From Saccharopolyspora sp. SCSIO 74807 (lineage in GTDB: Bacteria > Actinomycetota > Actinomycetes > Mycobacteriales > Pseudonocardiaceae), in the NCBI RefSeq assembly GCF_037023755.1, contig NZ_CP146100.1, positions 6,602,501-6,666,500 on the forward strand: a DNA stretch of 64,000 bases, read 5' to 3'. Both the position numbers and the translations under genes were made by a program. The notes under the pieces were generated by a model. The model was not told the DNA's origin. It saw only the letters and a program-made list of their open reading frames with translations, and searched no databases. This document shows positions 47,124 to 52,465 of the stretch, one piece after another (position 1 is the first letter of the stretch; every line of letters starts with the position of its first letter).

Positions 47124-47339
47124 TCACACCGGGGGCCGGACACCGGGCAACTTGCCCGCGCCGTTGCAGTGCGGGCAGGTCCGCCACTCGCCCATCGTCA
47201 TGCCGGTCTGGGTGTCGGTGGTCGCCTGGATCAGGTAGAGCCGCGGCTCGCTCAGCTTGCGGAACCCGGCGCAGCCGAAGCACACCGTGTTCGGTCCTTC
47301 TTCGAAGCCGGGTCCGTCTTGCTCGTCGCGGTCGTTCAT
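47124..47339 (-). CDS. Small zinc-ribbon-like protein (two CxxC pairs)
   Basis: A 71-aa protein with CFGC (residues 20-23) and CPHC (55-58) flanking a short beta segment, probably one zinc site. The GTCPHCNGAGK-like end resembles DnaJ-type zinc fingers, but no other DnaJ part exists. ATG 47339 is used. It lies 56 nt upstream of the DUF5996 gene on the same strand. The function is unknown. Confidence 0.65.
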   Translation of the reverse strand: MNDRDEQDGPGFEEGPNTVCFGCAGFRKLSEPRLYLIQATTDTQTGMTMGEWRTCPHCNGAGKLPGVRPPV

Positions 47340-47546
47340 GCGCCCATCGTCGCGCACTCGGGTGCGCGGGGCGCAGCCCCTCGCCGCGCTCGCGCCACCG
47401 CGGGCGGCCGAATCAACTTTCCGGAAATTGCGCGATCCATTTTCCGCTAGCAAATTTCCTGCGGAAAAGACCGCCGATCGGCGGATAAACCTACCCGGTT
47501 TCGATCCGATACAACCAGGAAAGGACCGAAAACCAGGGGGCGACGA

Positions 47547-47666
47547 ATGGGCAAACGAGACTCCGACCGGGACGGGCAGGGAAAACCGCAACCGGACAAG
47601 TGGGAGACCTGGCAAAGCGACGACGACGGCAACAAGCACGAACGCCCCGGCGGCGAGAAGAAGTAG
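47547..47666 (+). CDS. 39-aa highly charged peptide, candidate imiditide-type RiPP precursor
   Basis: ATG 47547 is preceded by AGGGGG at good spacing. The peptide has seven Asp and ten Lys/Arg/His residues, two Trp (19 and 22), an Asp run at 25-27 followed by Gly28-Asn29, and a KHERPGGEKK tail. It ends 6 nt before a PIMT-like methyltransferase gene. Imiditides are made from a charged linear precursor by one PIMT homologue that methylates a specific Asp, which then closes to aspartimide. An Asp before Gly, as at 27-28 or 9-10, is chemically favoured for this. No leader cleavage site or transporter is apparent. Confidence 0.6.
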   Translation: MGKRDSDRDGQGKPQPDKWETWQSDDDGNKHERPGGEKK

Positions 47667-47672
47667 GCAGCG

Positions 47673-48788
47673 GTGCCGGATTGGTGCGAGCGGCTCGCGG
47701 TGCCGCGTGCCGCCTTCATCCCCGCGGTGATCTGGGACTACGAGCCGGAGACCGACGAGTTCACCAGGATCAGCAGGGATTCCGAACCCGCGCGGTGGCA
47801 CGGGATGGTGGCCGCCGACCAGCCGATCACCACGCAACTGGACGACGGGCAGCCCGACGACGGGCAGCCGCACGACCGCACCCGCGTCCCGAGCAGTTCG
47901 TGCAGCCAGCCGTCGCTGGTCGCGGACATGCTGGACGCACTGGACGTGCGTCCAGGGCACCGAGTGCTGGAAATCGGCACCGGAACCGGCTGGAACGCGG
48001 CTTTGCTCTGCGAACGGGTCGGCGGAACCGGGCAGGTGGTCTCGGTCGAGATCGACCCGGCCGTCGCGGACAACGCCCGGCGCGCGCTGGCGGCCTCCGG
48101 CCACGCACCGCTGGTGATCACGGCCGATGGGGCGGCGGGATACCCGCCCGGTGCCCCGTACGACCGCGTGCTCGCAACCGCCTCGGTCCGCGCGATCGCG
48201 CGCACGTGGATCGAGCAATCCCGCCCGGGCGGGCGGATTCTTGCGCCGTGGGGCACCGACTACGGCGAAGACGCGCTGACCGCGCTGGAAGTGCACGCGG
48301 ACGGTTCGGCTTCCGGGAGTTTCGGGCAGCGCCTCGCTTTCATGCGGATGCGCGGGCAGCGCCGCGGATTCCTCGACCCGGCGGCGGACGAGCTCGACGA
48401 TGCCGAACGCAGCAGCACCGCACGCGAACCGCTGGAGTTGTTCGAGATGGTGGATTTCTCCGCGGCTTCGTTCACCATCGGCCTCCGGGTGCCGGACTGC
48501 TACCTCACCGTGGAGGACACCGACGACGCTCACCGGCTGATCGAGCTGCACGACATCCGCTCGCATTCCTGGGCGCGGGTCACCATGGTGCGCGGAGAAC
48601 ATCCGTGGACGGTGCACCAGCTGGGTCCGCGGCGGCTCTGGGACGAAGCCGACACGGCGTATTCGTGGTGGCAGGACGCCGGAAAACCCGCACCGGACCA
48701 GTACGAGCTGACGATCGCCGCGGACGGCGCGCACTCGGTGCGCCTGCCAGGGCGGCACTGGCGCCTCCCGCTCCGACCCGGGTCGTAA
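47673..48788 (+). CDS. PIMT-like O-methyltransferase, RiPP-associated type
   Basis: A 371-aa protein related to protein-L-isoaspartate O-methyltransferase. The substrate-loop equivalent SSSCSQPSLVADML and motif I VLEIGTGTGWNAALL (about residues 100-114) are clear, with VEIDPAVADNAR after. The C-terminal domain ends AYSWWQDAGKPAPDQYELT, the kind of tail I associate with RiPP-linked PIMT homologues rather than housekeeping PIMT (about 210 aa). It is translated 6 nt after the Asp-rich peptide gene, so that peptide is the probable substrate. A DDGQP-DDGQP duplication near residue 52 is unusual. Confidence 0.82.
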   Translation: MPDWCERLAVPRAAFIPAVIWDYEPETDEFTRISRDSEPARWHGMVAADQPITTQLDDGQPDDGQPHDRTRVPSSSCSQPSLVADMLDALDVRPGHRVLEIGTGTGWNAALLCERVGGTGQVVSVEIDPAVADNARRALAASGHAPLVITADGAAGYPPGAPYDRVLATASVRAIARTWIEQSRPGGRILAPWGTDYGEDALTALEVHADGSASGSFGQRLAFMRMRGQRRGFLDPAADELDDAERSSTAREPLELFEMVDFSAASFTIGLRVPDCYLTVEDTDDAHRLIELHDIRSHSWARVTMVRGEHPWTVHQLGPRRLWDEADTAYSWWQDAGKPAPDQYELTIAADGAHSVRLPGRHWRLPLRPGS

Positions 48789-48793
48789 TGCGA

Positions 48794-48840
48794 GTGATGG
48801 GCCCCTTCGCCCGATCTTGCGAGGCGACGGGGCCCATCAC
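48794..48840. terminator. Long hairpin terminator between convergent PIMT-like and asnB genes
   Basis: GTGATGGGCCCCTTCGCC (48794-48811) pairs with GGCGACGGGGCCCATCAC (48823-48840) at 17 of 18 positions. It starts six bases after the methyltransferase stop. It belongs to the same hairpin family as 33972 and 43862, with diverged arms. Confidence 0.78.
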
Positions 48841-48859
48841 CGGCGAGAGCAGCAGCCCG

Positions 48860-51003: not shown

Positions 51004-51219
51004 TCAGAGTTCGGCGATCAGCGCGACGCAGGACGCGCACGTCGTGCGCTGCTCGTCATCGGACACGGGCCGGTCGAGCAACCGGTGCACGCGCCCGGAA
51101 ATCGGGTGGCCGCAGATGCCGACCAGCACCGGGCCGATCGCATCGCGCGCCACGGCGTGCCAGGTCGAGGACCACTCGGAGCTGACCCACGCGATCACCC
51201 CGCTTCGAGCTGCGGCCAT
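51004..51219 (-). CDS. Small Cys/His-containing hypothetical protein
   Basis: A 71-aa protein. ICGHPISGRVHRLL and CASCVALIAEL provide one Cys-Gly-His and one CxxC, suggesting a small metal site. It overlaps the upstream ORF by 25 nt, so the pair is probably co-translated. Its position divergent to an XRE gene is typical for such small actinomycete proteins. The function is unknown. Confidence 0.5.
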   Translation of the reverse strand: MAAARSGVIAWVSSEWSSTWHAVARDAIGPVLVGICGHPISGRVHRLLDRPVSDDEQRTTCASCVALIAEL

Positions 51220-51536: not shown

Positions 51537-51619
51537 GATTGCTGCATGCTGATCGTTGAGCAAGATCCACCTTCGAGTGACGACCTTGGATAGCTCGGTG
51601 ACGACATACGATGTGGCGC

Positions 51620-52465
51620 ATGGTCAGCAGCGCAGACACACCGCGAGCGCGTGCTCTCGGCGCCGAGCTCCGACAAGCACGCCAACGCAGCGGCATGACC
51701 ACTCGGGAACTCGCCGAGTCGGTCGATCGCAGCAGCTCGCACGTATCGCGTTGGGAAAACGGAAAGCTGACGCCGAGCGAAACTGACACGGCAACGATAC
51801 TCGCCGTCCTTGGAGTCAACGGCGCGGATCGTGAGCGAATGCTCGAATTGGCACGAGACGCTCTCGAACCGAACTGGGTTGCCCCCGGCACGGACAAACA
51901 GTTAGCGGCATTGACCGACTACGAACGAACCGCTACGACAATCATCAACGTGGAACCGCTGATGATTCCCGGACTGCTGCAGACCTATGACTACGCACGA
52001 CACATCATCGCCGAGTTCGGAGCATCCGGTCGCAGCGAAGCCGACCAGCGCGCGCAGCTTCGAGTCGGGCGTCAGCACGTCCTTACCGGCAGCTCCCCGA
52101 AGCAGCTCATCGCGATCATAGGCGAGGCAGCATTGCGCTATCCGCCGTGCCCAGCCGAGGTAATGGCCGGACAGCTCCACGAACTGCAACGGTGGGGCGC
52201 ACGGGACCACATCGACATTCGAGTTCTCCCGATCGATCGCCCGGCCGGTCCGGCCATGAGCGGTTCCTGGGCACTGATCGAGTTCGCTGATACCAGACCA
52301 GTGGTGCAGCTCGAACATTACGACACCTCCACGACCATCACCGACGTGAGAGCGGTCGGCCGCTACCGAAACGCCGCCGACATGCTCTGCGAAGTAGCAA
52401 TGAATGCGATCGAGTCGGCTGAACTCATCGCAGAAATTTTAGGAGGCAAGGAGAAGTCATGCTGA
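51620..52465 (+). CDS. XRE-family regulator with DUF5753-type C-terminus
   Basis: A 281-aa helix-turn-helix protein. The N-terminal HTH is ELRQARQRSGMTTRELAESVDRSSSHVSRWENG. The rest (EPLMIPGLLQTYDYARHII, VLTGSSPKQLIAIIGEAALRY, GSWALIEFAD..PVVQLEHYDTS) is the common actinomycete XRE effector part. TACGAT 8 nt upstream of ATG 51620 suggests a leaderless mRNA; ATG 51611 would add three residues. It overlaps the first DUF397 gene by 7 nt, and XRE-DUF397 pairs are usually functional partners. Confidence 0.9.
   Translation: MVSSADTPRARALGAELRQARQRSGMTTRELAESVDRSSSHVSRWENGKLTPSETDTATILAVLGVNGADRERMLELARDALEPNWVAPGTDKQLAALTDYERTATTIINVEPLMIPGLLQTYDYARHIIAEFGASGRSEADQRAQLRVGRQHVLTGSSPKQLIAIIGEAALRYPPCPAEVMAGQLHELQRWGARDHIDIRVLPIDRPAGPAMSGSWALIEFADTRPVVQLEHYDTSTTITDVRAVGRYRNAADMLCEVAMNAIESAELIAEILGGKEKSC

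Follow-up and report, generated by a model that had tools for sequence, protein, structure and literature searches.

A single clade of PIMT homologues is spread over several RiPP classes, and in the pamtides its members act alone, according to the passages on these enzymes in two recent papers (PMC10787088, PMC13001092). The type I pamtides, or imiditides, are represented by SpaA-SpaM of Streptomyces sparsogenes and NmaA-NmaM of Nonomuraea maritima; both are two-gene units in which a short, linear, charged precursor precedes a PIMT homologue with a C-terminal domain and a WxxxGxP motif. Their precursors are described as approximately 45 aa long and rich in Gly, Pro, and Asp (Lys) (PMC10787088), and WxxxGxP is described for imiditide, lasso, and graspetide methyltransferases (PMC13001092). 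The type II pamtides, or cysimiditides (FcaA-FcaM), have the same enzyme family and two-gene form, and the graspimiditides (fuscimiditide and amycolimiditide) are the systems connected with the NCBIfam model TIGR04188. Here, we analyzed a locus in a 64,000-nucleotide stretch of Saccharopolyspora sp. SCSIO 74807 DNA (the window) that has the two-gene layout of the type I pamtides. Judged by its sequence, we put the probability at about 0.82 that these two genes form a minimal imiditide (type I pamtide) cassette, with D9 of the precursor as the likeliest target.

A sequence-only reading of this DNA had proposed an Asp-rich 39-aa ORF, preceded by a ribosome binding site and located 6 nt before a 371-aa PIMT-like methyltransferase with a C-terminal extension, and no other biosynthetic gene close by; all of these elements were recovered. 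The candidate precursor gene (47547..47666, + strand, ATG start), assigned from its ORF and its conservation, is separated by 6 nt from the GTG start of the methyltransferase gene (47673..48788, + strand), whose 371-aa product is assigned by Pfam and NCBIfam matches to the PIMT-like O-methyltransferases with a C-terminal extension (PAMTs). The putative ribosome binding site region before the ATG (47534..47544, + strand) contains CAGGGGGCGAC in the window and CAGGAGGCGA(C), with AGGAGG, in L028, the near-identical locus of Saccharopolyspora sp. HNM0986, whose enzyme is 99% identical. A promoter scan of the locus found no promoter. Folding compared with shuffled sequences revealed a very stable hairpin with a 12-pair outer stem (48794..48840, no strand assigned) in the gap between the methyltransferase and asparagine synthase genes; the folding energy of 48786–48850 is −43.2 kcal/mol versus a shuffle mean of −23.0 (z −6.2). 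This hairpin, which is absent from the output of a simple terminator scan, is perhaps a terminator that closes the two-gene unit and is shared with the convergent asparagine synthase gene. On the 5′ side of the pair, the opposite strand carries a gene for a DUF5996 protein and a gene for a 71-aa Cys-containing protein; on the 3′ side, it carries the asparagine synthase gene. A scan of eight neighbouring proteins detected neither a RiPP cyclase nor an ATP-grasp ligase, the latter setting the locus apart from the graspimiditides. The 71-aa protein (47124–47339, − strand), divergent from the pair, contains CFGCAGF and CPHCNGAG and has no Pfam match; it is identical in L028 and absent from the other 22 loci tested. 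An ORF at 51198 was matched only in L028 and three other loci of the genus.

Translation of 47547–47666 gives MGKRDSDRDGQGKPQPDKWETWQSDDDGNKHERPGGEKK. By hand count, its 39 residues include 7 Asp, 6 Gly, 6 Lys, and 3 Pro and no Cys; the codons of D9 and D27 are at 47571–47573 and 47625–47627, respectively, and the residue numbers previously given for D9-G10 and D27-G28 (within S-D-D-D-G-N) are correct. As in type I precursors, the peptide is short, linear, charged, encoded directly upstream of its enzyme, and free of Cys motifs, with a conserved Asp beside Gly, but it has only the 3 Pro. The two CxxCxGxG motifs of type II precursors are lacking and, since there is no Cys, the peptide would form no zinc hairpin, unlike the cysimiditides. 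Compared with SpaA and NmaA by description, it represents a subfamily of its own, Asp-rich and with few Pro, for which the consensus is MGKRDxDRDGQGxxQPDKWExW...DGNKHE. We compared 32 codons across 19 sequences from 18 chosen loci. The mean differences between relatives at codon positions 1, 2, and 3 were 0.125, 0.094, and 0.354, and the median dN/dS was 0.107 (155 of 169 pairs with usable dS). This codon comparison indicates that the peptide gene is under purifying selection, far beyond what a chance ORF would show.

The methyltransferase matches Pfam PCMT at residues 76–224 (2.6e-31), has the SAM motif VLEIGTGTGWNAALL, and has the SAM-binding core in common with housekeeping PIMTs (Pcm; T. 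maritima 1DL5). Among the NCBIfam models, the best match is TIGR04188, "ATP-grasp peptide maturase system methyltransferase" (320.6 bits, 1.6e-95, below the model cut-off of 380), which aligns over enzyme residues 9–354 of 371 and model positions 22–362 of 363. All 42 aligned enzymes, including that of the window, matched this model at 1e-20 or better. The PIMT equivalog models remained below their cut-offs: NF010549 scored 106.6 bits against 282, NF001453 100.1 against 188, TIGR00080 89.7 against 159, and NF010550 88.7 against 359. Past the PIMT core, the extension comprises approximately 145 residues, compared with the more than 100 aa expected of the class; unlike Pcm and 1DL5, the enzyme has an extra C-terminal region, with no sequence match to 1DL5, as well as a dedicated peptide gene. 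A PDB profile search for the C-terminal domain matched the PIMT core alone, with the 1DL5 match limited to residues 53–206, and an AlphaFold model built from six sequences was poor (mean pLDDT 49.4) and was discarded, lending no support to the C-terminal fold resembling T. maritima PIMT that is expected of the class. The class motif WxxxGxP is present as WQDAGKP. It was found in 136 of 164 homologues; the 28 without a clean motif include the close L050, L153, and L154. The enzyme has seven matches in the genome of the window; apart from the enzyme itself, one is full length (C1:2392529-2393581, L002; 41% identical); upstream of the L002 enzyme is a charged peptide of another type, MGEEKNDHSVEDDKQTGKTSGDVDPKKYEDDA. 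Peptides resembling that of L002 were also seen in L014, L117, L207, L211, and L216.

The peptide and the enzyme are conserved together. Once hits covering fewer than 230 query residues and identical proteins were removed, 21 distinct enzymes at least 55% identical remained, the window's included, and a peptide with R-D-G-[QHA]-G lies directly upstream in all 21, although in L050 the second half of the precursor is out of frame. The peptide is likewise encoded before two of the close enzymes that had been removed, namely the second copy in L080 and the split copy in L094. A close enzyme is present in 5 of the 6 genomes of the genus, its own included, and 185 of 249 family genomes contain some homologue at 1e-30. 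A profile of the 18 chosen peptides located 26 places in 24 of the 249 family genomes, representing 11 of 46 genera; at least 25 of these places sit within 75 nt upstream of an enzyme match, among the matches listed, and the remaining one (G080:C1:3851600, E 1.2e-5) has no enzyme nearby among the matches listed. On 394 genomes across the class, the profile matched strongly only in the window's own genome, where the peptide is present in a single copy; matches in three other genomes (E 0.003–0.007) were taken for chance.

We also compared 14 window genes with 23 related loci; the window genes were the sole reference for the neighbourhoods of other clade members. The enzyme was found in 23 of 23 loci and the peptide in 21; the two loci without a peptide match, L078 and L079, have more distant peptides. 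The remaining window genes gave only scattered weaker matches beyond the genus; the XRE gene was matched at 24–38% identity in L030, L067, L068, L069, L074, and L078, and the TPR-type gene was matched in L029, L030, L068, and L080. Of the 14 genes tested, only the peptide-enzyme pair recurs throughout the related loci. An XRE-DUF5753 gene (51611–52465, + strand, in the window; loci L061–L080) was considered as a further associate, being present in 9 of 20 cassette loci versus 2 of 20 controls, which were loci of comparable size taken from those genomes. The association was rejected because the sample is too small and too related to rely on, with 3 of the 9 positives coming from the window's own genus; in addition, the window's genome has 46 such genes.

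A tree of 115 homologues places the window enzyme in a clade of 16 rows (SH-aLRT 99) with R-D-G-[QHA]-G peptides only. Precursors in the other clades are mostly short, charged, and without Cys. Precursors were picked by a score for composition, start codon, and an upstream purine motif, and some of the 142 ORFs so picked are certainly not precursors. A clade of seven (support 99) contains six enzymes (L128, L141, L142, L163, L168, and L171) behind Cys-motif peptides resembling those of type II pamtides, with the second Cys motif incomplete in L142, and L150, also with a Cys-motif peptide, is located elsewhere. In the trees, the window enzyme lies among enzymes encoded behind pamtide-like precursors of types I and II, and precursor type tracks enzyme clade, as judged by eye.

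Several homologues occur in multiple or damaged copies. Two genomes of the same family (G179 and G201, genus g3; e.g., L081-L092 and L248-L267), 3.7 and 5.2 Mb in size and approximately 87% complete with 5–7% contamination, contain 25 and 23 methyltransferase homologues (E ≤ 1e-40), many with their own, differing precursor. Paired homologues lie close together in L065 and L080 and at G445:C7:363218 and 365339 and G514:C2:636630 and 638278; in L080, a window-type precursor precedes both copies, and the second copy aligns over residues 1–218 only. In L094 (G198), the precursor is intact and the methyltransferase is split over two frames, apparently broken, and L050 (G006) also appears to be a broken copy, with the second half of its precursor in another frame.

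Because this tree of enzymes and precursors fits the published picture, we filed the locus as an imiditide, or type I pamtide. The imiditide-type interpretation offered by the sequence-only reading is supported by the conserved pair, the RiPP-associated TIGR04188 as best model, and the tree position among pamtide-type enzymes; the small ORF does persist beside homologous methyltransferases, and the enzyme does not go with the housekeeping PIMTs (320.6 bits for TIGR04188 versus 89–107). These comparisons indicate that the locus very probably belongs to a recently described peptide class, as a subfamily found strongly, in this sample, in one family only (24 of 249 genomes). The substrate relation, site, and product proposed here are read from sequence. 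The methyltransferase would transfer a methyl group from SAM to one Asp side chain of the linear, charged 39-aa peptide; the next backbone amide would then attack, with loss of the methyl ester, giving an aspartimide, which would hydrolyze to isoaspartate and aspartate. The target Asp would be D9 in R-D-G-Q-G, and the C-terminal N-K-H-E would be read by the enzyme. Modification of SpaA and NmaA needs the C-terminal region (PMC13001092) and, by analogy, enzyme recognition is the most likely function of the conserved C-terminal motif (mostly N-K-H-E).

The modified residue was predicted from 18 chosen precursors, a set that leaves out L053 and the frame-shifted L050. All 18 have D5, D9, and D27. 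The residue after D9 is always Gly; that after D27 is Gly in 13 precursors, Gln in 4, and Glu in 1. Neighbouring-clade precursors retain D-G-[QH] (L052, DRDGQGGYQPDK; L053, DKDGHRPDPDPSKW; L055, DRDGHKQG; L056, ESDGHKDG; L058, GDGQMRTPDPSKW) and lack an Asp where the window peptide has D27; L054, one of the 18, keeps it. Their C-terminal motif is G-x-G-K-H or G-G-G-K-H, with L053 lacking it. Since D9-G10 is invariant and D27 is followed by Gln or Glu in 5 of the 18, we predict D9 (R-D-G-Q-G) as the most likely modified residue. The sequence-only reading had named both pairs; its first choice, D27-G28, now appears less likely than D9-G10. Modification of D27 by the same system, next to the C-terminal N-K-H-E, is a possibility that we rate as unlikely, but some probability is retained for it because of the distant late-Asp precursors and the NmaA site. 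The former are L126, L132, and L134, whose only Asp lies in a late P-D-G-G (followed by G-R-H-E-K in L126 and L134), so that the modified site can differ between subfamilies. In L056, L057, and L058, an Asp is also found two residues before the D27 position. As for NmaA, a peptide shortened by 20 residues from the N-terminus is still modified, although to a lesser extent when 15 or more are missing (PMC13001092); its site thus lies beyond residue 20, later than residue 9 and away from the N-terminus, and by description the type I pamtides differ in this respect from the window peptide, whose likely site is only nine residues from the N-terminus.

Other explanations concern the pair itself. The methyltransferase might act on some other protein, with the peptide serving as a small partner or regulator of the enzyme; a diversifying RiPP would not be expected to be conserved so evenly over its full length, and some PAMTs are proposed to act on larger FHA-domain proteins (PMC10787088). 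This appears improbable, given that the composition, length, and position of the peptide match those of SpaA and NmaA, which are modified by related enzymes (PMC10787088, PMC13001092), and that precursor types follow the enzyme clades. It is far less credible still that an ordinary protein-repair PIMT happens to follow an unrelated small ORF: the Pfam PCMT match would suit such an enzyme, but TIGR04188 outscores the best PIMT model by 320.6 to 106.6 bits, all four equivalogs fall below their cut-offs, the extension is long, and the small ORF is kept with the enzyme across genera. We give equally little credence to the idea that a graspetide, lasso, or lanthipeptide cluster lost its cyclase and left this pair behind. 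The best model is indeed named for ATP-grasp systems, and an asparagine synthase gene is next downstream; however, that gene is convergent, its product is complete (GATase and Asn synthase), it was not found in the 13-kb stretches of three other members of the genus (L061, L063, and L071), and the neighbours scanned include no cyclase.

In some relatives, the Asp of the conserved Asp-Gly is replaced by Asn. Asn-Gly is subject to especially fast deamidation via a succinimide. Ten curated precursors carry Asn-Gly at this position (L057, L060, L090, L112, L249, L251, L254, L258, L261, and L262), with AAC or AAT as the Asn codon in the nine of them that are among the picked ORFs. L057 belongs to a clade adjoining the window's; the remaining nine are all found in a single genus of this family, and the Asp-bearing L091 falls inside their clade. 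A further search of 11 genomes of the same genus gave 15 places in five of them and one more Asn-Gly peptide, L296. A tree of 55 enzymes with hand-set labels (10 N, 42 D, and 3 not scored, namely L092, L093, and L098) requires at least three D/N changes, and well-supported branches alone force three; L254, L261, and L262, which were under the identity limit of the 115-row tree, were restored for this tree, and L252 was left out because of a stop in the aligned part. Among the picked ORFs, the site is D in 68 and N in 10; from these, the doubtful L152 was not used, and L262 (N-G-E) was added by hand to the curated set. In an alignment of 11 peptides picked to include both states, the site column is D or N, the adjoining Gly and Pro never vary, and G-K-H is conserved. 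In a rough 145-row precursor alignment, the site column has D in 75 and N in 12 of 130 filled rows. As a control, N makes up a larger share in three other columns of this alignment (D 37/N 11, D 24/N 8, and D 31/N 8), so the Asp/Asn exchange is not special to the site; several other columns have no N.

Asn deamidates through an aspartimide (PMC13001092), and the main-text passages on Asn and deamidation in PMC10787088 and PMC13001092 do not describe Asn at an imiditide site. We tentatively suggest that the modified position may be "Asp or Asn-Gly"; in the Asn-Gly cassettes, the enzyme would act on spontaneous isoAsp, or the imide would form without the enzyme, and the succinimide/isoAsp end state would be what is selected; because of the column control, we regard this as unlikely and hold it less strongly than before. 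If true, this would point to D9 as the modified residue of the window peptide and to two genetic routes to one product. With the Asn variants, it could be tested directly whether the system exists for methylation or for the resulting imide/isoAsp.

The biological role of imiditides is stated as unknown (PMC13001092). Our guess for the function of the peptide is a fixed role, either internal or in signalling, and not that of a diversifying antibiotic, as its slow change over its whole length across genera would suggest. A subfamily with a near-constant peptide across genera is a good system in which to seek the role of imiditides, because a knock-out phenotype should be common to many species.
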